Source: Basidiobolus meristosporus CBS 931.73
Taxonomy: Eukaryota; Basidiobolomycota; Basidiobolomycetes; Basidiobolales; Basidiobolaceae
Assembly (NCBI GenBank): GCA_002104905.1
Contig: MCFE01000384.1
Span: forward strand, 19,850 to 83,849
DNA: 64,000 nt
Reading direction: 5' to 3'
The notes beneath the pieces were generated by a model that was given only the letters and a program-made list of their open reading frames with translations, was not told where the DNA came from and ran no database searches. The position numbers were made by a program, and so were the translations under genes. Below, piece by piece: positions 33,569-58,522 of the stretch (position 1 is its first letter; every line of letters begins with the position of its first letter).

Positions 33569-34518
33569 ATGACTGAATACCAGAACCGCATTATTGGCGC
33601 TCCTAACACTTTGGAGTACCGTGTTTACTTCGGTAAGGCTGGTGGCACGCATTGATTGCTGGACCTGTTGACTAACATTGCTGGCTCACAGAACAAAACG
33701 GGAAGATCATCTCTCCCTTCCACGATATCCCCCTCTTCGCCAACGACACGAAGACCGTCTACAACATGGTTGTTGAAATCCCCCGCTGGACCAACGCCAA
33801 ACTCGAGATATCCACCGGGGACGCATTCAACGGCATCAAGCAAGATATCAAGAAGGGAAAGTTGAGATATGTTCGCAACAGTTTCCCTCACCACGGCTAC
33901 ATCTGGAACTATGGTGCGCTCCCTCAAACCTGGGAGGACCCCACCCACTCTCACCCTGATACACAGGCCCGAGGAGACAATGATCCTGTCGATGTGATCG
34001 AAATCGGTGAGCAGGTTGGCTATACTGGACAGGTCAAGCAAGTAAAGGTTCTCGGTGTAATGGCTCTGATCGATGAAGGGGAAACCGATTGGAAAGTCAT
34101 CGCAATCGATGTCAATGACCCACTGGCAAACAAACTCAATGATATTGACGATGTTGAGAAGCATCTTCCTGGATTGATTCGTGCCACCAACGAATGGTTC
34201 CGCATCTACAAAATCCCCGACGGGAAACCCGAAAACAAGTTTGCGTTCTCTGGAGAAGCCAAGAACAAGAGGTATGCGACCGACGTGATCCTCGAAACTC
34301 ACGAGGCTTGGAGGCGCTTGATCACGGGGGCTATCCCACCCAAGGGAGAGCTTTACGATATTACTCTTGAAAACAGCACCGTGTCCGGCTCCCCATACAA
34401 TGTTGGTGTCGATAGCGAGGTCTACAAGAACATCCCTGCTGACTCCCGTAGGCCAGCTGCTCCCGTTGACTCCTCTATTGACAAGTGGTTCTACATCTCT
34501 GGCAACTCGAACGCTTAA
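33569..34518 (+). CDS. IPP1: Soluble inorganic pyrophosphatase
   Basis: Two exons, 33569-33632 and 33692-34518, 296 aa, normal length for the fungal family I enzyme. It hydrolyses PPi to two phosphates with Mg2+. The signature [10 protein letters not shown] (residues 116-125) carries the metal-binding acids. [83 protein letters not shown] and DKWFYISG are all conserved. Good codon bias suggests high expression. Confidence 0.97.
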
Positions 34519-34871: not shown

Positions 34872-37289
34872 TTATTCGTCAAAGTTGAACTTGATGGAAT
34901 GACTTTCCAAGTCAATCTTTCCCCCGCGGTAAGAACCACGCTTCTTCTTGTTCTTCTCCTTGGTGAATCCCTTGCCACGAGTGACGATCAAGTCGTTGTG
35001 GGCTTTGTGTCCGTAGGAGCCGAGGGATCCGCCTTTGCTCATGAAGGTGTTGTCCATCAAGCGTTCGTCGTGGAAGACGACATCCTCATCCTTGATTCTG
35101 CAGAAAGGGGTGTTGGGAGTTCTCTTGCTTTTGGGAGTTTCATCGGATTCAGCAGGTCTCTTGTTGGGAGTGGCTACTGACATCTTCATGCGCTTGTTGT
35201 TGGGCTCGGAAGTCTCGCTTTCGGATGAATCGGCCTTTCTCTTCTTGGAGTTGTCTTCGGCTTCTTCCTCAGAGTCGGAGTCGGAGGAGCTGGAGCTGCT
35301 GGAGGACTCGGCATCGGACTTCTCATCTTCGGAGCTGGAGCTGGATGAACTGTCATCGCTTGAATCAGCCTTGGCCTTTTCCTTCTCATCTTCGGACTCG
35401 CTAGATGAATCAGAGTCAGAGGAGTCGGACTTGGCCTTCTCCTTCTCATCTTCAGACTCGCTGGACGAATCAGAGTCGGAGTCAGAGTCAGAGGATGAGT
35501 CCGACTTGGCCTTCTCTTCCTCATCGGAGCTGGAATCCGAGTCATCGCTAGAGGATTCAGCCTTGTCCTCTTCATCGGATGAAGAGTCACTGCTGGAGGA
35601 CTCAGACTTAGCCTTCTCCTCCTCATCTTCGGACTCGCTAGATGAATCAGAGTCAGAGGAGTCGGACTTGGCCTTTTCCTTCTCATCTTCAGACTCGCTG
35701 GACGAATCAGAGTCGGAGTCAGAGGATGAGTCGGATTTGGCCTTCTCTTCCTCAGATTCAGAGGAGGAATCATCGCTGCTGGAGTCAGAAGACTCAGACT
35801 TGGCCTTCTCTTCCTCAGATTCATCGCTGCTGGATTCCTCCTTCTTGGCATCGGCCATCTCGGTATCTTCATCCGAGTCGGAAGATTCATCGCTGCTGGA
35901 GGATGACTCGGCCTTGGTTTCTTCTTCGGAGTCTGAGGAATCGCTGCTGGAGGATTCGGATTTGGCCTTCTCTTCCTCATCGGAGGAATCGTCACTGCTG
36001 GAGGAATCCTCGGAGTCGGAGGAAGATTCTTCGCTGCTGGAGGAGTCAGATTTGGCCTTCTCCTCAGATTCGGATGAGGAATCGTCGCTGCTGGAGGAGT
36101 CGGAGGATGATTCGGCCTTTTCCTTCTCGTCCTCGGATTCGGAGGAAGAGTCACTGCTGGAGGAATCGGAGGATGATTCAGCCTTGGCCTTCTCTTCCTC
36201 GGATTCAGAAGAAGAGTCATCACTGCTGGAGGAGTCAGAAGATGATTCAGCCTTGGCCTTCTCTTCCTCAGATTCAGAGGAAGAGTCATCGCTGCTGGAG
36301 GAGTCGGACTTAGCCTTCTCGTCCTCGGATTCGGAGGAAGAGTCATCACTGCTGGAGGATTCAGCCTTTTCCTTCTCATCCTCGGATTCGGAAGAAGAGT
36401 CACTGCTGGAAGAGTCCGAAGAAGATTCAGCCTTAGCCTTCTCTTCCTCAGATTCAGAGGAGGAATCGTCGCTGCTGGAGGAGTCGGAGGATGATTCGGC
36501 CTTTTCCTTCTCATCCTCGGATTCGGAGGAAGAGTCATCACTGCTGGATGATTCGGATTTGGCCTTCTCCTCCTCGGACTCGGAGGAAGAATCGTCACTG
36601 CTGGAAGATTCAGAGGATGAGTCCGACTTGGCCTTCTCTTCAGATTTTTCTTCCTCAGATTCAGAGGAGGAATCATCGCTGCTAGAGTCTTCGGAGGAGG
36701 AGGAGGAGGAGGACTTGGCCTTCTCTTCTTCAGAGGAGGATGAAGAGTCGCTGCTGCTAGAGCTGTCGCTGCTTGAAGATTCTTTGGTGGCCTTCACATC
36801 AGAAGAGTCGGAACTTGACTTGGCCTCTTCTTCGTCATCGCTAGAGTCGGAATCGGAATCAGCTTCATCGGAGCTGCTAGATTCTGAGTCGGCATCCTCG
36901 GAATCAGAGGAGCTGCTGGAGGATTCTTTCTCGCTCTCGGAGTCGCTAGAGTCGGAATCGCTGTCGACATCCATGGCGTCACTGAAAGAGCAACCTGTTG
37001 TGAATACAAACTCCTCAAAACCTCGACAACATACAACCATACCTCTTGGGGGCAGCAAGGTGCTTGCGGTAGACCTCAAACCACACGTTGCTTTTTTCAT
37101 CTTTCATAAGCTAAAATCCAAAACTTAATACACGGAGCCTGGAACCAACACAACCCGAGAGATTGACATGAATTGAACCAGGCTAGTTACCTCCTTGACA
37201 GCCAGCTCGAGAGATTTGGCGGTTTTTTCGCACCCATGCTCAGCTAAGTGGCTATTAATCAACTCATAGAGAGTAGGCTTTTCACTCAT
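34872..37289 (-). CDS. Nucleolar phosphoprotein SRP40/NOPP140 with N-terminal LisH motif
   Basis: Three exons on the minus strand: 37289-37191, 37110-37043 and 36981-34872, about 758 aa. The N-terminus (YELINSHLAEHGCEKTAKSLE, then WFEVYRKHLAAPK) is a LisH-like dimerisation helix pair. The middle, about 560 residues, is almost only Ser, Asp, Glu, Lys and Ala: serine/acid runs separated by short EEKAK-type basic spacers, ideal casein kinase 2 targets. The C-terminus is the diagnostic SRP40_C domain (TPFCRIKDEDVVFHDERL, then GYGHKAHNDLIVTRGKGF-type ending; here SYGHKAHNDLIVTRGKGFTK). NOPP140 chaperones snoRNPs and links them to Cajal bodies or the nucleolus. Copy number of the internal repeat is expected to vary between strains. 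Confidence 0.93.
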
Positions 37290-39651: not shown

Positions 39652-39723
39652 GGCTCAATGGTCTAGTAGTATGATTCCTCGTTCGGGTCGAGGAGGTCCC
39701 GGGTTCAATTCCCGGTTGAGCCC
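39652..39723 (+). tRNA. tRNA-Pro(CGG), copy 1
   Basis: 72 nt. The acceptor stem GGCTCAA pairs with TTGAGCC, and the anticodon stem CCTCG/CGAGG encloses loop TTCGGGT, giving anticodon CGG. T loop TTCAATT is in GGGTTCAATTCCC (B box). There is no intron and no encoded CCA. TTCTTTTC follows as a Pol III terminator. It faces tRNA-Arg copy 1. Confidence 0.93.
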
Positions 39724-39803
39724 TTCTTTTCTCACACCTTTTGCAGCTGGTTCATTTTGCTGATTGGCAAGGGTTCGGATACTGAGAAAAATAAAAAAGA
39801 AAG

Positions 39804-39876
39804 CGACCCAGGTGGGGGTCGAACCCACGACTTTCTCCTCCGGAGGGAGACACTCTTTCCACTGAGCTACAGGGCC
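39804..39876 (-). tRNA. tRNA-Arg(CCG), copy 1
   Basis: 73 nt on the minus strand. D arm GCTCAGTGGAAAGAGT; anticodon stem TCTCC/GGAGA with loop CTCCGGA gives anticodon CCG. T arm GTGGGTTCGACCCCCAC. The acceptor stem has one G-T pair and one T-T mismatch at position 6-67. A T-rich terminator follows (TTTCTTTTTTATTTTT on that strand). Confidence 0.92.
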
Positions 39877-40703: not shown

Positions 40704-40776
40704 GGCCCTGTAGCTCAGTGGAAAGAGTGTCTCCCTCCGGAGGAGAAAGTCGTGGGTTCGACCCCCACCTGGGTCG
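40704..40776 (+). tRNA. tRNA-Arg(CCG), copy 2
   Basis: 73 nt, identical in the mature part to copy 1 as far as I can read. Anticodon loop CTCCGGA; followed by CTTTCTTTTTATTTTT. It lies in the right arm, facing tRNA-Pro copy 2. Confidence 0.93.
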
Positions 40777-40855
40777 CTTTCTTTTTATTTTTCTCAGTAT
40801 CCGATCCTTTTCAATCAGCAAAAATGAACCATCTGCAAAAGGTGTGAGAAAAGAA

Positions 40856-40927
40856 GGGCTCAACCGGGAATTGAACCCGGGACCTCCTCGACCCGAACGA
40901 GGAATCATACTACTAGACCATTGAGCC
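40856..40927 (-). tRNA. tRNA-Pro(CGG), copy 2
   Basis: 72 nt on the minus strand, the reverse complement of copy 1. Anticodon loop TTCGGGT; TTCTTTTC terminator beyond the 3' end. Confidence 0.93.
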
Positions 40928-45953: not shown

Positions 45954-46025
45954 GGCTCAATGGTCTAGTAGTATGATTCCTCGTTCGGGTCGAGGAGGTC
46001 CCGGGTTCAATTCCCGGTTGAGCCC
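45954..46025 (+). tRNA. tRNA-Pro(CGG), copy 3
   Basis: 72 nt, same as copies 1 and 2. Here only the pair plus about 80 bp between them is duplicated; the outer flanks are unrelated to the inverted repeat. Confidence 0.93.
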
Positions 46026-46105
46026 TTCTTTTCTCACACCTTTTGCAGATGGTTCATTTTTGCTGGTTGAAATGGATCGGATACTGAGAAAAATAAAAAA
46101 GGAAG

Positions 46106-46178
46106 CGACCCAGGTGGGGGTCGAACCCACGACTTTCTCCTCCGGAGGGAGACACTCTTTCCACTGAGCTACAGGGCC
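46106..46178 (-). tRNA. tRNA-Arg(CCG), copy 3
   Basis: 73 nt on the minus strand, facing tRNA-Pro copy 3 as in the other two pairs. Similarity to the first pair ends at TTTACGAAA, 12 nt beyond its 5' end, where a TGTGACC-starting sequence begins. Confidence 0.93.
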
Positions 46179-47075: not shown

Positions 47076-47984
47076 CTATAATACAATGGGGGGAGATTGG
47101 CCCAAGACTGTTTCAAATGGAAGTGGTGATTTACGTGGTAAGAAAGCAAAAATCCCGTCCATGATTGGAATATCCAGGATTGTCGGTGGCGTTGGGGCTT
47201 GTTCAGGCACCAAATCGATTGGAGCAATGTCATTGGTGTTGCCAGTATCAGGCCTGTTCTCAGGCGGCATAGTGGTTTCAGGATTGCGTTCTTGGTCAAT
47301 TGAAACATCTATCGGCTTTGTCTCTGGTTGATTTAGTTCAACATTGGATTTTTCCTCACGAATGGGGTTGTTCACTTCAGTATCTGGGATTTGGTGATTG
47401 ATTCCTCTCAAGTCACCGTTAAGCTCTGGTCCACTACCATTACTGGTAATAGCTTGATTAGTCGGGCTCGCATCTTTTGGCTCTTTAAAGGTAGTACTAG
47501 AGATTGAATTGACAGTTGGGAATCCGTCCAAAATAGCAGGCTGGCTCTCTATTGTGTCAGCAGGTGGCTGTTCACGGTTGCTAGGGGCTTCAATATTTTT
47601 CGCTTTGCAGCCACCGGTTTTCCTAGTGCTAACGGGGTCGACTACTGTGGGGGGACTACTGTTTACTAAATCGAAATTTTGCTGGATGATCTGATCATTG
47701 CTATTTATGCTCCTATTGATAGGCTCCAGACTTCCATGTTTCGAACAGCTCTTAGGGCAGGTGCACTTGGAGTCAGTCGATTCCTTTCTCTCCCCAGAGC
47801 TCTCCAATGCGGGCACTTTTAAATCAGAACTTGTATGATCCCTATTGCCCAGGGTGTTTTCAGGAGAAGCGCGCACAATTGTATCTAGGGTGGTGGAGGC
47901 GATTTTTTGTCTACAAATAACCGCAGACCTCGCTGTATCCAGCAGTAGTAGACAGACATACAGACAGTAGATTGAAAACCTCAT
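47076..47984 (-). CDS. Secreted or surface low-complexity protein, unknown
   Basis: Single exon, 302 aa. The start MRFSIYCLYVCLLLLDTARSA is a clear signal peptide. The mature part has a small Cys cluster (CTCPKSCSKHG, about residues 75-85) and is otherwise disordered, rich in Pro, Asn, Ser, Thr and Asp, with possible N-glycosylation sites (NRS, NGS). The last 25 residues are more hydrophobic (IMDGIFAFLPRKSPLPFET). There is no recognised domain and no GPI signal. A TATATA box on the minus strand near 48,038-48,045 sits about 55 bp before the ATG. Possibly a wall protein or effector-like secreted protein; inference only. Confidence 0.6.
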   Translation of the reverse strand: MRFSIYCLYVCLLLLDTARSAVICRQKIASTTLDTIVRASPENTLGNRDHTSSDLKVPALESSGERKESTDSKCTCPKSCSKHGSLEPINRSINSNDQIIQQNFDLVNSSPPTVVDPVSTRKTGGCKAKNIEAPSNREQPPADTIESQPAILDGFPTVNSISSTTFKEPKDASPTNQAITSNGSGPELNGDLRGINHQIPDTEVNNPIREEKSNVELNQPETKPIDVSIDQERNPETTMPPENRPDTGNTNDIAPIDLVPEQAPTPPTILDIPIMDGIFAFLPRKSPLPFETVLGQSPPIVL

Positions 47985-48602
47985 ATCCGAAGTTGTGCTG
48001 GTAACTTGAATGATTTGGCAGTAAGCATCTCGCTCGAGGTATATATGTGGAGCGAAGCTAACAGCGATTCGGTCGGGAGAATTAATCCATTAGCCAAAAT
48101 GCAGTTGGGTTGGCAACATGAATGAGCATTTGCGAATAGGTGGCAAGTATGAGGCGGTTCGGGCTTAGGGTATTTGCAAGATGAACATATCTCCGTACTG
48201 TGGCATATGCTCTTGTTGAGGCCTCTACTCTCACCTAGGGAGAACTAATCACAAGTAGCCCAGCAAAGATTCCAACCCTGTGGTCTGGACCAATCACCGG
48301 TGTTGCGCGTAGGATCCCCCTTTTCCGGACGCATGCCCCTACATGTATGGGCGGAAATACTCGTCCATGAGGAGGCCAGAGTACGGGAATATTCCCACTT
48401 TCGTTGCATGTTATGCTGTATCGGCTGTATCCAGTACACAATATATAGGACATGTAGCGGATCAACCATACAGGGTGCCTAACAAGGGTTTCACCATAAT
48501 CAATTAATTTCATTTGTGCACTTTAATGTGTTTCTTCTAGACGTTTTCCTAATTAGGCGATTCTAGGGAGGAATTGCCATTACGAGCATGGTGATTCCAA
48601 CA
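47985..48602. other. Divergent promoter region
   Basis: About 620 bp between the secreted protein gene and ATX1, with each gene's TATA box near its end. Nothing else is supported. Confidence 0.5.
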
Positions 48603-49059: not shown

Positions 49060-49422
49060 TCACTCATCCACTACGAAGCGGGACGTCAGTTTAGCCTCCC
49101 ACACCACATGGCCTTTGACTGGTTTGCCACCAGATTGTTGAAACATGACTCCTCCGAAGCGCCCATTGGTTGTGCCATTGAAGTCCGCATGAAAGCCAAC
49201 CAACGACTTGACAGCATTATCGAACAATTCCCTGAACTCTTTCCCATAATGCTGAAAAGTGGCTTCGACCTCGGCAGTAATTCGGTTATATTCCTCTTCA
49301 GAGATACCCGCGTTCGCGGCCTCTATCTGAGCCGCGGTGGAAGGAAGTTTTGTCCGGGTGCCTGCTAGGACGCAAGCAAAGTATCCAATAACCAACGGGA
49401 CCAAAAGCAAGTTCATCCGCAT
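49060..49422 (-). CDS. Small secreted protein, unknown
   Basis: Single exon, 120 aa. I take MRMNLLLVPLVIGYFACVLAG as the start because a TATATAA box lies at about 49,459-49,465 on that strand, just upstream; a farther ATG at 49,458 would overlap that box. The leader is a good signal peptide. The mature part is Ala/Glu-rich with one helix (ISEEEYNRITAEVEATFQHYGKEFRELFDNAVKSL) and a C-terminus GGKPVKGHVVWEAKLTSRF. There are no cysteines in the mature part and no recognised family. Tail-to-tail with ATX1, 93 bp apart. Confidence 0.55.
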   Translation of the reverse strand: MRMNLLLVPLVIGYFACVLAGTRTKLPSTAAQIEAANAGISEEEYNRITAEVEATFQHYGKEFRELFDNAVKSLVGFHADFNGTTNGRFGGVMFQQSGGKPVKGHVVWEAKLTSRFVVDE

Positions 49423-49466
49423 TGCAATTTGCTCCTTGTTGATGGCCCTTATCAACATTATATATG

Positions 49467-50768
49467 CGGGTAAGTCTTTTCAATGCAATGTGTCAACTGG
49501 CTTATCAAGTTACAGGAGGAACATGATTTGAAACATGATTCGGTTTCAGTATATTCCGCTGATACTTACCATTTCACAAGCATTTCAGCAAAAGTGCCAT
49601 GAATAGTGCGTCATACTGAGGGAAACCCAAATTCACAACAATAAAAGACAAAAATATAGCAGGTACCAATCTTTGGTTGTAAACTACTGTAACCAACTTG
49701 GCATTACTAAGAATTTCTATTGTACCAACACGTACACTTTGTTATCCAATATATGATTGAATCTTTGGACATGTAGAGCACCTCACCACTGTCTACATTC
49801 AATTTTGCAACATTGAATGTTGTAAAAGTAGAGGAATGTGATTATAGCCAGTATTACAGTAATGTACTGTGTAGCTCTATCCCTAGTATATCAAGCATCT
49901 AAAGAAGATTAAAGCCAAATACCCTAATACCCAAGGTTTCTTTTAATTTGCTGACAATGTTGAAAGCTGGAGAATATTGGGCTCTTGTTTAGACAGACAA
50001 GTGTTATTGGCTAGGTAGGTGGAAAGAGAAAAACCCAGACAGGGCTTTTAAGAAATATCCTAAAAAAAGACTCAAGAAAATGCCAGCAGAATACCATTGC
50101 AATATCAGCTGAGCTTCATGTTTCTCTAAACTTACAACTCTCATCACCTCAGCTACTAGCAATTTATCACACAAACATGTAGACTTTGCTGGAGGAGAGT
50201 AATCCACCAAGCACTTGATGCATATTACTATTTGCTGTTTCAACTAGATATTTTTGCAAAAACATGAATGATTAACACCAGCTACATCTTAGCCAATTAC
50301 TGCAAAAAACACCAGAAATATGCCAGAAGAGTAAAAGAAGACTTCCAAGAGGAGAGTTTTCACAGGGGGTACTTCCAACTGACATATTCAGGCAGGCCAC
50401 TTAATAAGTACGTATCAGGTGAAGTGTGTTTTAGAAGTAACTACACATCAAGAATGAAGACAAAATTCATTGAGCTTGGCATACAAAGTCCCATTACTTT
50501 ACTGGTATCAGCAATAAGACTGCAAGTGCTAACACAAAGTATTTGACAGTCTGTGGGGTCACTAGCATTTGAAATAACTGACATAACTTCTGGTTTGCCA
50601 AAGCCATGTGGTGGGATTATTGACCTGGTAGGAGCTGCTCCTTACACCTGAGGCACACCAACCTCAAATTTGACCAATTTGCCAACTGTCACTGCTGACT
50701 ATTCATCAATTAGATCACATGATAATAAGGTTGAGAATTAAGAAGTGATTTGCAGCAGCTTACCAGCT
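49467..50768. other. Boundary region before the CpG-free compartment
   Basis: 1.3 kb with no gene I can support. CpG dinucleotides thin out and the last one before the array is at about 50,411 (TACGTA). Several short frames here carry no motif. Confidence 0.55.
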
Positions 50769-50962
50769 GGGCCTGATATACTGATGGGACTATAGTGATC
50801 CCAGTGCCATGGAAATATATCTGAGGCACTATTAGTGGGGATGACTGGCAAGGAGAAAATGTATTTAAGTCCAAATGGTCAGCACTGGTATAGCATCATC
50901 CAATCTTGCCTCAACTTATTAGTGGTCTTCCCATAAAAACTCATCTCTTTCTTTTAGCTAAA

Positions 50963-51406
50963 ATGAAGTTCTCTTTCAGCAATCTCTCACTGGCCACTGT
51001 TCTTGGTGTCCTTTTCCTTGGAACCACACTCTCCCTTCCCCATGGTCAGGCTGCTGCAGGTACCAGTAAAGTTCAGAAGAGAGGCTACTCATCCTATGAC
51101 TATGATGATTGCTGTGACCCCTGCTATGATCCTTGTTATGATGATTGCTGGGATCCCTGCTATGATCCTTGTTATGATGATTGCTGGGATCCCTGCTGTG
51201 ATCCTTGCTATGATCCTTGCTATGATGACTGCTGTGATCCCTGCTGTGATCCCTGCTGTGATCCCTGCTGTGACCCATGCTGTGATCCTTGCTGTGACCC
51301 ATGCTGTGATCCTTGCTGTGACCCTTGCTGTGATCCCTGCTATGATCCTTGCTATGATGATTGCTGTGACCCATGCTGGGATGATTGCTATGATGACTGC
51401 TGCTGA
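50963..51406 (+). CDS. Secreted cysteine-repeat protein, unit 1
   Basis: 147 aa, one coding exon. It starts MKFSFSNLSLATVLGVLFLG, a signal peptide ending near SLPHGQAAA. Then comes a short propeptide TSKVQKR with a Kex2-like Lys-Arg site. The mature part begins GYSSYDYDD and is a run of tetrapeptides C-x-D-P or C-x-D-D, where x is Cys, Tyr or Trp (DPCY, DDCW, DPCC). About one residue in three is Cys; there is no Lys, Arg or His after the processing site. The DNA is a 12-bp repeat (TGCTGTGATCCC type). TATTTAAG at 50,863 and AATAAA near 51,515 flank it. A 3' splice-like CTTTCTTTTAG stands 5 nt before the ATG and may end a leader intron. I know no named family. Metal binding or disulfide-linked polymer formation is inference. 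Confidence 0.85.
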   Translation: MKFSFSNLSLATVLGVLFLGTTLSLPHGQAAAGTSKVQKRGYSSYDYDDCCDPCYDPCYDDCWDPCYDPCYDDCWDPCCDPCYDPCYDDCCDPCCDPCCDPCCDPCCDPCCDPCCDPCCDPCCDPCYDPCYDDCCDPCWDDCYDDCC

Positions 51407-51834
51407 GTTGGGTAGCCTAAAGTGCCCACAGCTAGAATTAGCAATTGCCAGTGCTGCAAGTTCTACTGTGCTGGTTTTGCATCACCTAAATTACTCAATG
51501 CCTACAATTTTGAATAAAGTCAATCATGTTAGCTGATATGTGTATACAATGGATTATGATTTCAGGGATCAGCATATGGCTCTTATTCATCAAGCACTCT
51601 CCCATGAACAGGGCATAAACAAGTGGAGTACAAAAAAGTAAGCTGCTGTTTAGGGTTAGTCAGCATATACCAACCTTTACTTGGGTAGGGGCAACAAAAA
51701 TCAGGCTGTGGTTTAAAAAATTCTTGCAAACCAGCCTACTTTTACACTACTGAGTTGACCTTCATTTCTGCCAGGATTATGGAGCTGCTGGGAATTGAAC
51801 CCTGCACCTGAAGCACTGAGGCCCAGCTCTAAAC

Positions 51835-51845
51835 CCAATTGCCAG
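51835..51845 (-). other. tRNA-like A box paired with B box at 51,790-51,802
   Basis: On the minus strand TGGCAATTGGG (A-box-like) is followed about 32 nt later by GGGTTCAATTCCC, a near-perfect B box identical to that of the tRNA-Pro genes in this window. The intervening and flanking sequence does not fold into a tRNA acceptor stem. The same B box recurs at 53,011-53,023, 54,207-54,219, 55,410-55,422 and 56,608-56,620, one per array unit. A tRNA-derived SINE head or tRNA relic is possible. Confidence 0.45.
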
Positions 51846-51919
51846 ATATCACTACTGATAGATCTCATGGCAAATCTGATAATGCTTAGGTGGGCTACCA
51901 AGACAATCAAAGTGATAGC

Positions 51920-52015
51920 ATGGCAGCTGGGCCTGATTTACTGATGGCAGCTGGGCCTGATTTACTGATGGCAGCTGGGCCTGATTTACTGATGGCAGCT
52001 GGGCCTGATTTACTG
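51920..52015 (+). repeat. 24-bp promoter repeat, four copies (unit 2)
   Basis: Four perfect units of ATGGCAGCTGGGCCTGATTT + ACTG, about 180 bp upstream of the unit 2 ATG. Unit 1 has a single diverged copy near 50,773. Confidence 0.9.
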
Positions 52016-52194
52016 ATGGGACTATAGTGATCTCAGTGTCATGGAAATATATCTGAGGCACTATTAGTGGGGATGACTGACAAGGAGAAAATGTATTTAA
52101 GTCCAAATGGTCAGCACTGGTATAGCATCATCCAATCTTGCCTCAACTTATTAGTGGTCTTCCCATAAAAACTCATCTCTTTCTTTTAGCTAAA

Positions 52195-52626
52195 ATGAAG
52201 TTCTCTTTCAGCAATCTCTCACTGGCCACTGTTCTTGGTGTCCTTTTCCTTGGAACCACACTCTCCCTTCCCCATGGTCAGGCTGCTGCAGGTACCAGTA
52301 AAGTTCAGAAGAGAGGCTACTCATCCTATGACTATGATGATTGCTGTGACCCCTGCTATGATCCTTGTTATGATGATTGCTGGGATCCCTGCTATGATCC
52401 TTGTTATGATGATTGCTGGGATCCCTGCTGTGATCCTTGCTATGATCCTTGCTATGATGACTGCTGTGATCCCTGCTGTGATCCCTGCTGTGACCCATGC
52501 TGTGATCCTTGCTGTGACCCATGCTGTGATCCTTGCTGTGACCCTTGCTGTGATCCCTGCTATGATCCTTGCTATGATGATTGCTGTGACCCATGCTGGG
52601 ATGATTGCTATGATGACTGCTGCTGA
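52195..52626 (+). CDS. Secreted cysteine-repeat protein, unit 2
   Basis: 143 aa. Same signal peptide, Lys-Arg site and mature start as unit 1, but with one C-C-D-P tetrapeptide fewer. By count about 36 Cys among roughly 103 residues after Lys-Arg, arranged as 12 C-C, 9 C-Y and 3 C-W steps. The order of Tyr and Trp steps at both ends is conserved between units while the central C-C-D-P run varies in length. Confidence 0.85.
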   Translation: MKFSFSNLSLATVLGVLFLGTTLSLPHGQAAAGTSKVQKRGYSSYDYDDCCDPCYDPCYDDCWDPCYDPCYDDCWDPCCDPCYDPCYDDCCDPCCDPCCDPCCDPCCDPCCDPCCDPCCDPCYDPCYDDCCDPCWDDCYDDCC

Positions 52627-53140
52627 GTTGGGTAGCCTAAAGTGCCCACAGCTAGAATTAGCAATTGCCAGTGCTGCAAGTTCTACTGTGCTGGTTTTGC
52701 ATCACCTAAATTACTCAATGCCTACAATTTTGAATAAAGTCAATCATGTTAGCTGATATGTGTATACAATGGATTATGATTTCAGGGATCAGCATATGGC
52801 TCTTATTCATCAAGCACTCTCCCATGAACAGGGCATAAACAAGTGGAGTACAAAAAAGTAAGCTGCTGTTTAGGGTTAGTCAGCATATACCAACCTTTTA
52901 CTTGGGTAGGGGCAACAAAAATCAGGCTGTGGTTTAAAAAATTCTTGCAAACCAGCCTACTTTTACACTACTGAGTTGACCTTCATTTCTGCCAGGATTA
53001 TGGAGCTGCTGGGAATTGAACCCTGCACCTGAAGCACTGAGGCCCAGCTCTAAACCCAATTGCCAGATATCACTACTGATAGATCTCATGGCAAATCTGA
53101 TAATGCTTAGGTGGGCTACCAAGACAATCAAAGTGATAGC

Positions 53141-53212
53141 ATGGCAGCTGGGCCTGATTTACTGATGGCAGCTGGGCCTGATTTACTGATGGCAGCTGGG
53201 CCTGATTTACTG
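53141..53212 (+). repeat. 24-bp promoter repeat, three copies (unit 3)
   Basis: Three units of the same 24-mer as before unit 2. Confidence 0.9.
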
Positions 53213-53391
53213 ATGGGACTATAGTGATCTCAGTGTCATGGAAATATATCTGAGGCACTATTAGTGGGGATGACTGACAAGGAGAAAATGTATTTAAGTC
53301 CAAATGGTCAGCACTGGTATAGCATCATCCAATCTTGCCTCAACTTATTAGTGGTCTTCCCATAAAAACTCATCTCTTTCTTTTAGCTAAA

Positions 53392-53823
53392 ATGAAGTTC
53401 TCTTTCAGCAATCTCTCACTGGCCACTGTTCTTGGTGTCCTTTTCCTTGGAACCACACTCTCCCTTCCCCATGGTCAGGCTGCTGCAGGTACCAGTAAAG
53501 TTCAGAAGAGAGGCTACTCATCCTATGACTATGATGATTGCTGTGACCCCTGCTATGATCCTTGTTATGATGATTGCTGGGATCCCTGCTATGATCCTTG
53601 TTATGATGATTGCTGGGATCCCTGCTGTGATCCTTGCTATGATCCTTGCTATGATGACTGCTGTGATCCCTGCTGTGATCCCTGCTGTGACCCATGCTGT
53701 GATCCTTGCTGTGACCCATGCTGTGATCCTTGCTGTGACCCTTGCTGTGATCCCTGCTATGATCCTTGCTATGATGATTGCTGTGACCCATGCTGGGATG
53801 ATTGCTATGATGACTGCTGCTGA
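53392..53823 (+). CDS. Secreted cysteine-repeat protein, unit 3
   Basis: 143 aa, identical in protein sequence to unit 2. Promoter, leader and 3' region are also near-identical apart from one fewer 24-bp repeat and small indels in the spacer, so units 2 and 3 are a very recent duplication or are kept alike by gene conversion. Confidence 0.85.
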   Translation: MKFSFSNLSLATVLGVLFLGTTLSLPHGQAAAGTSKVQKRGYSSYDYDDCCDPCYDPCYDDCWDPCYDPCYDDCWDPCCDPCYDPCYDDCCDPCCDPCCDPCCDPCCDPCCDPCCDPCCDPCYDPCYDDCCDPCWDDCYDDCC

Positions 53824-54335
53824 GTTGGGTAGCCTAAAGTGCCCACAGCTAGAATTAGCAATTGCCAGTGCTGCAAGTTCTACTGTGCTGGTTTTGCATC
53901 ACCTAAATTACTCAATGCCTACAATTTTGAATAAAGTCAATCATGTTAGCTGATATGTGTATACAATGGATTATGATTTCAGGGATCAGCATATGGCTCT
54001 TATTCATCAAGCACTCTCCCATGAACAGGGCATAAACAAGTGGAGTACAAAAAAGTAAGCTGCTGTTTAGGGTTAGTCAGCATATACCAACTTTTACTTG
54101 GGTAGGGGCAACAAAAATCAGGCTGTGGTTTAAAAAATTCTTGCAAACCAGCCTACTTTTACACTACTGAGTTGACCTTCATTTCTGCCAGGATTATGGA
54201 GCTGCTGGGAATTGAACCCTGCACCTGAAGCACTGAGGCCCAGCTCTAAACCCAACTGCCAGATATCACTACTGATAGATCTCATGGCAAATCTGATAAT
54301 GCTAGGTGGGCTACCAAGACAATCAAAGTGATAGC

Positions 54336-54407
54336 ATGGCAGCTGGGCCTGATTTACTGATGGCAGCTGGGCCTGATTTACTGATGGCAGCTGGGCCTGA
54401 TTTACTG
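54336..54407 (+). repeat. 24-bp promoter repeat, three copies (unit 4)
   Basis: Three units of the 24-mer. Confidence 0.9.
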
Positions 54408-54587
54408 ATGGGACTATAGTGATCTCAGTGTCATGGAAATATATCTGAGGCACTATTAGTGGGGATGACTGGACAAGGAGAAAATGTATTTAAGTCCAAA
54501 TGGTCAGCACTGGTATAGCATCATCCAATCTTGCCTCAACTTATTAGTGGTCTTCCCATAAAAACTCATCTCTTTCTTTTAGCTAAA

Positions 54588-55022
54588 ATGAAGTTCTCTT
54601 TCAGCAATCTCTCACTGGCCACTGTTCTTGGTGTCCTTTTCCTTGGAACCACACTCTCCCTTCCCCATGGTCAGGCTGCTGCAGGTACCAGTAAAGTTCA
54701 GAAGAGAGGCTACTCATCCTATGACTATGATGATTGCTGTGACCCCTGCTATGATCCTTGTTATGATGATTGCTGGGATCCCTGCTGTGATCCTTGCTAT
54801 GATCCTTGCTATGATGACTGCTGTGATCCCTGCTATGATCCTTGCTATGATGACCATGCTGTGATCCTTGCTGTGATCCCTTGCTGTGATCCATGCTGTG
54901 ATCCTTGCTGTGACCCATGCTGTGATCCTTGCTGTGACCCTTGCTGTGATCCCTGCTATGATCCTTGCTATGATGATTGCTGTGACCCATGCTGGGATGA
55001 TTGCTATGATGACTGCTGCTGA
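54588..55022 (+). CDS. Secreted cysteine-repeat protein, unit 4, with out-of-frame patch
   Basis: 144 aa. The signal peptide and first repeats match the other units, but after CYDPCYDD a deletion shifts the frame, giving HAVILAVIP, and a second indel restores the C-C-D-P frame to the normal end. The result is a continuous frame with a hydrophobic nine-residue insert replacing repeats. Whether it still makes a working protein is unknown. Confidence 0.75.
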   Translation: MKFSFSNLSLATVLGVLFLGTTLSLPHGQAAAGTSKVQKRGYSSYDYDDCCDPCYDPCYDDCWDPCCDPCYDPCYDDCCDPCYDPCYDDHAVILAVIPCCDPCCDPCCDPCCDPCCDPCCDPCYDPCYDDCCDPCWDDCYDDCC

Positions 55023-55539
55023 GTTGGGTAGCCTAAAGTGCCCACAGCTAGAATTAGCAATTGCCAGTGCTGCAAGTTGTACTGTGCTGGTTTTGCATCA
55101 CCTAAATTACTCAATGCCTACAATTTTGAATAAAGTCAATCATGTTAGCTGATATGTGTATATGATGGATTAGTGATTTCAGGGATCAGCATATGGCTCT
55201 TATTCATCAAGCACTCTCCCATGAACAGGGCATAAACAAGTGGAGTACAAAAAAGTAAAGCTGCTGTTTAGGGTTAGTCAGCATATACCTAACTTTTACT
55301 TGGGTCTAGGGCAACAAAAATGAGGCTGTGGTTTAAAATATTCTTGCAAACCAGCCTACTTTTACACTACTGAGTTGACCTTCATTTCTGCCAGGATTAT
55401 GGAGCTGCTGGGAATTGAACCCTGCACCTGAAGCACTGAGGCCCAGCTCTAAACCCAACTGCCAGATATCACTACTGATAGATCTCATGGCAAATCTGAT
55501 AATGCTTAGGTGGGCTACCAAGACAATCAAAGTGATAGC

Positions 55540-55611
55540 ATGGCAGCTGGGCCTGATTTACTGATGGCAGCTGGGCCTGATTTACTGATGGCAGCTGGGC
55601 CTGATTTACTG
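55540..55611 (+). repeat. 24-bp promoter repeat, three copies (unit 5)
   Basis: Three units of the 24-mer. The following block has single-base insertions relative to units 2-4 (ATGGGTACTATAG, TCATAGGAA). Confidence 0.9.
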
Positions 55612-55792
55612 ATGGGTACTATAGTGATCTCAGTGTCATAGGAAATATATCTGAGGCACTATTAGTGGAGATGACTGGCAAGGAGAAAATGTATTTAAGT
55701 CCAAATGGTCAGCACTGGTATAGCATCATCCAATCTTGCCTCAACTTATTAGTGGTATTCCCATAAAAACTCATCTCTTTCTTTTAGCTAAA

Positions 55793-56223
55793 ATGAAGTT
55801 CTCTTTCAGCAATCTCTCACTGGCCACTGTTCTTGGTGTTCTTTTCCTTGGAACCACACTCTCCCTTCCCCATGGTCAGGCAGCTGCAGGTACCAGTAAA
55901 GTTCAGAAGAGAGGCTACTCATACTATGACTATGATGATTGCTGTGACCCCTGCTATGATCCTTGTTATGATGATTGCTGGGATCCCTGCTGTGATCCTT
56001 GCTATGATCCTGCTATGATGACTGCTGTGATCCCTGCTGTGACCCATGCTGTGACCATGCTGTGATCCTTGCTGTGATCCCTTGCTGTGATCCATGCTGT
56101 GATCCTTGCTGTGACCCATGCTGTGATCCTTGCTGTGATCCTTGCTGTGATCCCTGCTATGATCCTTGCTATGATGATTGCTGTGACCCATGCTGGGATG
56201 ATTGCTATGATGACTGCTGCTGA
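55793..56223 (+). pseudogene. Cysteine-repeat protein, unit 5, frameshifted
   Basis: The leader, processing site and first repeats are intact (one Ser-to-Tyr change in the mature start, GYSYYDYDD). A two-base loss near 56,009 shifts the frame and a stop follows at 56,063-56,065, leaving about 90 aa. Beyond it the C-C-D-P repeat DNA continues in another frame to the usual TGCTGCTGAGTT end near 56,223. The array therefore decays at its right end. Confidence 0.8.
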
Positions 56224-56716
56224 GTTGGGTAGCCATAAAGTGCCCACAGCTAGAATTAGCAATTGCCAGTGCTGCAAGTTCTACTGTGCTGGTTTTGCAT
56301 CACCTAAATTACTCAATGCCTACAATTTTGAATAAAGTCAATCATGTTAGCTGATATGTGTATAAAATGGATTATGATTTCAGGGATCAGCATATGGCTC
56401 TTATTCATCAAGCACTCTCCCATGAACAGGGCATAAACAAGTGGAGTACAAAAAAGTAAGCTGCAGTTTAGGGTTAGTCAGCATATACCAACTTTTACTT
56501 GGGTAGGGGCAACAAAAATCAGGCTGTGGTTTAAAAAATTCTTGCAAACCAGCCTACTTTTACACTACTGAGTTGACCTTCATTTCTGCCAGGATTATGG
56601 AGCTGCTGGGAATTGAACCCTGCACCTGAAGCACTGAGGCCCAGCTCTAAACCCAATTGTCAGATATCACTAATGATAGATCTCATGGCAAATCTGATAA
56701 TGCTTAGGTGGGCTAT

Positions 56717-58522
56717 CATATGTTGTGGGTACTGGTGCAGGTGCTTGCCCAACATAGATGCACTTATATTTAGTAATCTAACATCAAGTGAGGGATAACT
56801 TATGCAATACATTAGCAGGTATTATAGCCAGCCAGCTTATGGGGTAGTACTGATCAGACAAGACCAACGGGATAAAACTGAAATAAGGGTTGTAGAGAAA
56901 TAAGGAAGTAGACAATATGGCAATGGGTGCATCTGCAGTGGGTGTCACTATGGCCCCACTAAAACATAGCTGCACTTGCCACCTTACACAAACAGAGCCA
57001 GGTGAGTTTGTGACACCCATTAGCTTTGCTCTGCCTTCTGAATATAGCCTGCAAACTAATAGCTCTAAAGGAGGCTCTTGGATGGATTGTGGGCATATCT
57101 CCCCTCACAACAGTATCTTATATGAGACTGGCAAAATCACAATATGCAATGATGCAACACACATAGAAAAAATGCTCCCAATACTTTATAAAGCCCAGTG
57201 AGGCCAGTAACACACTTACTGGTGAATGATGCAATGTTGTGACTTGAGAAGTTGCATGTTTCCACCTATATCAGTAATGGGGGCTTTGAGGGCTTATTGC
57301 TACATCTTGCCAAGATCATTCAGGCATGCAACCTGCTAGATATATGGTACAAATGGACAACTGACATGCAGCTGGCAACATACATCTCAGAGACTGTTCT
57401 GATAAAAGCATGTTTTAACAGTTGCATGACACTCACATTAGCAAATGCCACCATTGCAAAGTGTCCAATATGTCTGGAATCCATCACCATAGGAGGAAAG
57501 CAATGTTCACACCTTGGAAATATTTCAGTAAGTCCCCATCTAAGGAGGTTCATGCAGTCCAACTACTATTGTTAAGTAATAAAGTACTGCACTCATTATC
57601 AATCAAGCACAAACATTTCCAAAATATTTGAAGGCACACATTACAAACATCCAAGAAGCAAGTGCTACCTTGAAGGTAAGAATGATAATGACTTTGCCTT
57701 GGCACTTGATGGATTTTCATCCAACAGGGTTGCAACCAGCAAATCCTCCTGGCCACTCAGTCTCATCAACCATAATTTGCTCCCAATCTTACAATAACAG
57801 AGCCAAAATTTGATAGTAGTCTCATTGATATCTGGTCCCAAGTTATGCGCTAACCTAGATGGCTACCTGTATCCATTGGAGGGTGAGTCTTGTATGCTAT
57901 TTGGTGGGATATCACTAAATGGTCATTATGCTAAGGTTTGTATTATTATTTACTTTGGAGATACCTGGCCATCAGTAAGATAGTTGGCTTTCTGTGCACA
58001 ATTGACAGTATTGTTGTTGAATGTGTGAGATCCAGGGGATTTGCTCTGTAATTCACACACATTGTTGTTATCCCAACACCAAGGTCAAGAGTATGATCTT
58101 CTGAGAAAGAATGTCCAGAAGTCAGCATGCAACTTCAGCAAGTTGACAAGCTATAAGTCTTTAGCCAGAATATGGAATTAATCAAAAAACAGAGATACTC
58201 AAGGTACAACTAATCTGTTGGAGCAAAAGCTTTCACCTGAGAGCAAGGCACTTTGGCTTCAGTAATATCCCTTTCCTAATGACAAAGTTGTACATGGGAA
58301 ATTGCATCTCAATGAGCCCTTTGAGATACCAGAGAAGTTTGAAAGGGATGGCAAGATGTTACAGAGTGTTTGCTACCCTTTGTACTTCTTATGGGCTCCT
58401 ATCAACACTCATATACATATGCAACAATGCAAGTGCAATGACTGGATGAACTGGATAAGTATTTATTCTGGTGGTCTTCTGAAGCATCTCTACTAAGAAT
58501 ACATTGGAAGTCATATGTGGAC
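56717..58522. other. CpG-poor, gene-free sequence
   Basis: About 1.8 kb after the array. The first CpG since 50,411 is near 56,867. Scattered frames of 60-107 codons are present but have no family motif or splice support. Probably decayed repeat sequence. Confidence 0.5.

Follow-up and report, generated by a model that had tools for sequence, protein, structure and literature searches.

What does a fungal genome make from a tandem array of open frames composed of little other than cysteine, aspartate, proline and aromatic residues, and are these frames genes at all? The question is raised by positions 50963..56223 of a 64,000-nucleotide stretch (the window, whose numbering is used throughout) of contig MCFE01000384.1 of Basidiobolus meristosporus CBS 931.73, a gut-dwelling fungus, where the array repeats a precursor whose mature part is built from C-x-D-P tetrapeptides. 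Judging from the sequences, we give a probability of about one half to the reading that it is an acidic structural protein, exported to form part of a wall, spore coat or adhesive, in which disulfides and perhaps also tyrosines link the chains. The copies themselves look like selected genes rather than a satellite that happens to be open.

The array runs from the first ATG at 50963 to the last in-register stop, which ends at 56223, just as an earlier note on this DNA had delimited it. It is a head-to-tail array of five copies of a unit of ~1.2 kb, successive copies starting 1232, 1197, 1196 and 1205 bp apart. The earlier note had spoken of five tandem genes; five tandem copies are indeed present, but three are clean, one (copy 4) is altered and one (copy 5) is broken. 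Units 1-4 share 97.8-99.9% of their 1153-1188 aligned bases, whereas unit 5 gives 85-87%, a figure not comparable with the others as the stretch used overran the end of the array. The copies, and the parts of the first of them, are:

50963..51406, plus strand: copy 1 precursor, 147 amino acids, clean frame (from reading frames and translation)
50963..51034, plus strand: signal-peptide-like segment of copy 1, approximately residues 1-24 (from the hydropathy profile, cleavage point judged by eye)
51035..51082, plus strand: propeptide of copy 1, approximately residues 25-40, ending in Lys39-Arg40 (from an alignment of six members)
51083..51403, plus strand: mature chain of copy 1, 107 amino acids, of C-x-D-P/D tetrads with x = C, Y or W
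52195..52626, plus strand: copy 2 precursor, 143 amino acids, clean frame, coding sequence identical to that of copy 3
53392..53823, plus strand: copy 3 precursor, 143 amino acids, clean frame (from reading frames and translation)
54588..55022, plus strand: copy 4, 144 amino acids, open, with an out-of-frame stretch at 54855-54881 that reads HAVILAVIP at residues 90-98 (from reading frames and translation)
55793..56223, plus strand: copy 5, broken, its 90-amino-acid frame ending at a stop at 56065 and the rest lying in another frame

The clean copies have a single Lys-Arg site, past which the mature chain has no further Lys or Arg. This is the organization expected of the secreted precursor with one such site that had been proposed, and the sequences favor that proposal: Lys39-Arg40, like the final Cys, is invariant in all six aligned members, drawn from two subfamilies, despite identities to copy 1 of just 57 and 51% in the two sister chains. 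A kexin is plausible here, since the genome of this strain holds seven exon-level matches to the P_proprotein domain (PF01483), which kexins have. The mature chain of copy 1 has 38 Cys, 33 Asp and 18 Pro, and its 33 acidic residues are accompanied by no Lys, Arg or His. From residue 50 to the final CC it consists of 24 unbroken tetrads, in which x is Cys 12 times, Tyr nine times and Trp three times, such that 12 of the 24 carry Tyr or Trp, while Cys recurs at each fourth residue (often as CC) with Asp two residues further on. It contains 24 C-x-D-[PD] words, where 2000 shuffles that preserved its composition averaged 5.4 and never exceeded 12; two sister chains stand nearer to chance (14 against a maximum of 11, and 10 against a maximum of 9). 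The composition first described, about one third Cys with x limited to Cys, Tyr and Trp, is borne out by copies 1-3, whose mature chains contain 35.0-35.5% Cys and 30.8-31.1% Asp. The accompanying statement that basic residues are lacking is true of the same three copies but not of copy 4, which has one His. AlphaFold predicted no fold for the protein (predicted local distance difference test, pLDDT, 36; predicted template-modeling score, pTM, 0.11).

The array is part of a larger family. A protein search of the strain's own genome, covering 89.0 Mb in 1311 contigs, gave 26 matches that resolved into 24 copies, and at least that many are thus present, in two subfamilies. Sixteen are of the C-x-D-P type, on C629 (the contig of the window, with five), C429 (2), C669 (2), C1093 (4), C740 (2) and C793 (1), and eight belong to a Pro-free sister type of Cys, Asp and Tyr, on C677 (3), C1112 (4) and C1272 (1). 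The count is a lower bound because contigs end in or close to arrays, as on C740, C793, C1093, C1112 and C1272; the search tool also states that its counts of repeated families are lower bounds. Nineteen of the 24 are clean (11 of the C-x-D-P type and all eight of the Pro-free type); outside the window, the defective ones are the second copy of C740, which is broken, the fourth of C1093, which contains a stop, and that of C793, truncated where the contig ends. Past the Lys-Arg, the sister chains extend for 70 or 86 residues, of which 22-23% are Cys and 47-50% Asp, and they keep in common with copy 1 the Lys39-Arg40, two Tyr soon after it, the first CC and the final Cys. Searches of the genome with a sister protein and with the N-terminal 49 residues yielded no additional clear member, and a site at C793:60295 (E 0.06) was dropped, there being no clean precursor at it.

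The reading best supported for these precursors is a polymer cross-linked outside the cell, because 36-43 Cys fall within the 103-115 residues of the C-x-D-P-type mature chains, no fold is predicted, the aromatic residues stand at set places and the gene dosage is high. Under this reading, the precursor would enter the secretory pathway and a Kex2-type protease would strip its propeptide in the Golgi, with the strongly negative chain kept in solution until it is exported. Once outside, C-x-D-P chains, each with 36-43 cysteines, would be joined to one another by disulfides, the tyrosines may be oxidized and coupled to cysteine, and the chains would set as a cross-linked layer of the spore wall, cell wall or an adhesive. 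Having so many identical copies would allow one product to be made in a burst, and unequal crossing-over or gene conversion would keep them alike. The absence of a predicted fold is, as far as modeling goes, compatible with such a polymer. A large set of tyrosinases (PF00264; 55 exon-level matches, which we count on 30 contigs) makes Tyr-Cys coupling possible; the set is possibly an expansion. With regard to the place of use, a passage in a 2026 paper (PMC13370150) describes capilliconidia in a sister genus whose beak is coated with adhesive material, and the capilliconidial adhesive is one candidate. A more specific version, in which amplified Kex2-matured C-x-D-P chains on capilliconidial beaks or spore walls form the genetically encoded glue or wall sclerotin of an early-diverging fungus, cured by disulfides together with cysteinyl-tyrosyl bonds that tyrosinase makes, while Asp binds calcium, strikes us as rather unlikely. 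If it is true, we know of no earlier fungal adhesive based on a C-x-D-P tetrapeptide.

The view that the copies are selected genes is favored because synonymous changes dominate within subfamilies and indels are multiples of three. Scripted Nei-Gojobori estimates over the whole frame gave ratios of nonsynonymous to synonymous substitution (dN/dS) of 0.16 and 0.15 for window copy 2 against C669 and C740, 0.06 for C669 against C740 and 0.14 for C677 against C1112; between subfamilies the ratio was 0.29 for window copy 2 against C1112, with the comparisons to C677 saturated or nearly so. Tests of third codon positions on DNA-made alignments of 10 gene pairs (20 tests, uncorrected and non-independent) point to a clear excess of changes there in the mature part of three C-x-D-P pairs (p 0.005, 0.0009 and 1.7e-5), the last being C669 against C740, where third positions hold 12 of the 13 differences. 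For C677 against C1112 the excess is weak in the mature part (p 0.08) and clear in the N-terminal part (p 0.002). Every indel across the 10 pairs has a length divisible by three (the C-x-D-P genes show 12, 24 and 36 bp), and the CCDP unit has 5, 6 and 5 DNA spellings in three genes. The invariant Lys39-Arg40 and final Cys, and the constant spacing of AATAAA in either subfamily, point the same way. Identical coding sequences form five groups, within arrays and between C669 and C1093, which points to homogenisation within the arrays. These patterns, together with the 19 clean copies and the retention of the Lys-Arg and N-terminal pattern in a subfamily that lacks the C-x-D-P unit, speak against a non-working tandem satellite that merely happens to be open in one frame, to which we accord a slim chance. 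What can be said for it is that five of the 24 copies are not clean, that the 12-bp unit is open in other frames too, that several arrays adjoin what by eye are retrotransposon-like frames (L009, L010, L012 and L015), and that no annotated protein was found in two word-based searches of 5.8 billion proteins, in which the best candidates were scored (694 in the plain search and the best 7987 word-sharing ones in the profile search). The last point also weighs against the secreted structural protein, as Basidiobolus-labeled matches numbered zero in both searches even though proteins of B. meristosporus and B. ranarum are present in the collection; hence, the genes might be unannotated or masked, missed by limits on length, words or candidates, or not transcribed. 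Other observations tell against it as well. Between subfamilies, the mature part shows no third-position excess in any of six pairs (p 0.29-0.82) and the N-terminal excess is weak (p <0.05 in two of six), while among the three close C-x-D-P pairs, with few differences, the N-terminal excess is absent (p 0.21-0.53). The copies within arrays are not independent. Low fold confidence is usual for a low-complexity sequence with a six-row alignment, the odd Cys counts in three of six chains (39, 43 and 19) fit polymer and metal binding alike, and the tyrosinases show no link to the C-x-D-P genes.

Metal binding is indeed the main rival: CC pairs, C-D-P-C (a C-x-x-C motif) and Asp carboxylates could chelate copper, zinc or calcium outside the cell in the manner of an exported metallothionein. 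The four C-x-D-P-type chains that were counted hold 11-15 C-x-x-C and 12-16 Cys-Cys words, metallothioneins are likewise about one third Cys, and organisms are known to acquire metal tolerance by amplifying genes. We nonetheless deem this alternative unlikely, if still one to be taken seriously. The typical metallothionein word is C-x-C, but C-[not C]-C occurs in none of the six sequences, with one CCC in each of the two sister sequences; the two sister chains, at 47-50% Asp, have one C-x-x-C each, and the Tyr and Trp would be left with no evident role. Fungal metallothioneins are, moreover, mostly cytosolic and have neither signal nor propeptide, unlike these precursors with their signal-like start, propeptide, Asp-rich chain and aromatic residues. 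Homology to a metallothionein or wall protein family, which the earlier note had named as grounds for giving up its reading, was looked for in Pfam, and none was found. An alternative that we consider quite doubtful has a Kex2-released signaling, antimicrobial or cyclized peptide trimmed to small cores, as in the Kex2-processed repeat proteins (KEPs) or the ribosomally synthesized and post-translationally modified peptides. It draws on the signal-like start and the Lys-Arg, and on the statement in PMC7329392, in the part of that paper used here, that CBS 931.73 had the most KEPs (43) among 1461 strains. The same part defines KEPs by at least three repeats of at least eight amino acids between Kex2 sites, a description that does not fit the C-x-D-P precursors. 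These resemble KEPs in being repetitive and probably secreted, with a Kex2-type site, but their one Lys-Arg, at 39-40, precedes the repeats instead of lying between them, and no Lys or Arg follows it in clean copies. Passages of that paper also describe the peptides of the KEP Rep1 of Ustilago as water-repellents at the surface that are needed for aerial hyphae, and a KEP type of CBS 931.73 (S-3) with seven Tyr- and Asp-rich members (PMC7329392), to which a distant tie of the C-x-D-P precursors is possible.

Returning to the reading as a secreted structural protein, we sought relatives elsewhere. The plain search gave two matches at E <=0.001 among its 694 candidates, and the profile search 15 at E up to 1 among its best 7987. 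The latter were rejected as relatives: they have CCDPC- or DDC-like stretches in common with the query, within differing architectures, and look weak and composition-like. One match (P0133) is from the nematode Ditylenchus destructor and several others are bacterial-looking by eye. The protein P0001 illustrates the pattern, having in common with the query CCDPC/CCKPC stretches, with 51% identity over 31% of the query, but a different architecture and a sub-threshold BclA_C match (E 0.06). Its closest genome match is an uncultured Clostridium metagenome-assembled genome (69%), and we read the likeness as convergence. Pfam, NCBIfam and the PDB, searched by sequence, held no credible match to the precursors: seven PDB sequences were circumsporozoite proteins, found via their NANP-type repeats and set aside as a composition artifact, and an NCBIfam viperin match to a sister chain (14.3 bits against a cut-off of 450) was dismissed as chance. 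At E up to 10, the sole Pfam model to match the window protein was MSSP, the male-specific sperm protein (PF03940). Membership was rejected, the score being 12.8 bits (E 0.094) where the cut-off is 21.2, and the match probably reflects composition. MSSP does have Cys- and Pro-rich repeats. No paper describing this C-x-D-P family was found among those listed by searches of the openly licensed literature. The statement that the family matches no described one thus stands after these databases and the two large, capped searches, and the sequences suggest that it is amplified and, as far as searched, lineage-restricted.

The kind of protein, Cys-rich and structural or binding, is a known one; this member and the C-x-D-P repeat are not. 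Among known kinds, the keratin-associated proteins (KRTAPs) offer an analogy: the high-cysteine KRTAPs occur in tandem clusters with concerted evolution (PMC2528016, in the portion drawn on). The likeness, which would be in the working principle only, lies in very high Cys, tandem subfamily clusters and concerted evolution. KRTAPs are, however, intracellular and lack a propeptide or Asp-rich repeats. The keratin-associated Pfam model matched neither the window protein nor two sister proteins up to E 10. A passage of PMC2528016 describes KRTAPs as unique to mammals; a 2025 abstract speaks of KRTAP-like proteins in jawless vertebrates (PMC12101200).

Around the copies, the following features recur:

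50862..50868, plus strand: TATA-like TATTTAA, 101 bp upstream of the copy 1 ATG
51513..51518, plus strand: AATAAA, 107 bp downstream of the copy 1 stop
51920..52019: 24-bp perfect tandem repeat in the spacer that separates copies 1 and 2
53141-53216, 54336-54411 and 55540-55615: 24-bp perfect tandem repeat in further spacers

Of the 13 C-x-D-P copies examined (16 known), 12 have the TATTTAA 101 bp ahead of the ATG, the exception being one C669 copy with a divergent upstream region, and AATAAA is found at +107 or +108 in 12 of the same 13, the exception being the other C669 copy, divergent downstream. Both motifs were chosen after the alignment had been viewed, and three damaged or cut copies were left out. 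In the sister type, AATAAA is at +73 in seven of eight copies; the eighth has just 62 bp of contig after its stop. The 24-bp repeat, of 3.2-4.2 copies, stands upstream of the TATA-like site in all four spacers. A spacer piece (51740-51900) was rejected as a dispersed element, all its 13 places being within these arrays (with the caveat that the tool is affected by common words), and an Rfam scan of 50001-58000 gave zero matches up to E 0.5.

The regions adjoining three arrays, L009 1846-3449 (C429), L010 1-2701 (C669) and L012 1-2717 (C740), are mutually 86-92% alike and hold retroelement-like frames by eye; they may be one element family and not a duplicated region. At L015:1604-2215, a single open frame passes from a copia-integrase-like part (by eye) into the tail of a sister-type precursor, as if a retroelement abuts an array copy. 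Just before the window array, open frames at 47079-48089 and 49063-49479 (both on the minus strand) have signal-like hydrophobic starts by eye and no Pfam match. Elsewhere in the window, an open frame of 743 codons with much Ser, Asp and Glu (34875-37103, minus strand) lies over 57-69 bp and 249-bp repeats. Convergent tRNA-Pro(CGG)/tRNA-Arg(CCG) pairs, ~80 bp apart, occur three times as a repeated two-tRNA unit (39652-39876, 40704-40927 and 45954-46178), and an inorganic pyrophosphatase (33676-34515) has two more paralogues in the same strain, with 83 and 81% identity.

Finally, these copies appear to constitute an unannotated, amplified secreted family, with members found in one fungal genome only in the searches made. 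The strict-register chemistry of Cys, Asp and Tyr would be of interest both for materials and for the stickiness or resistance of Basidiobolus spores, and the family may also illustrate how amplified genes drop from genome annotation.

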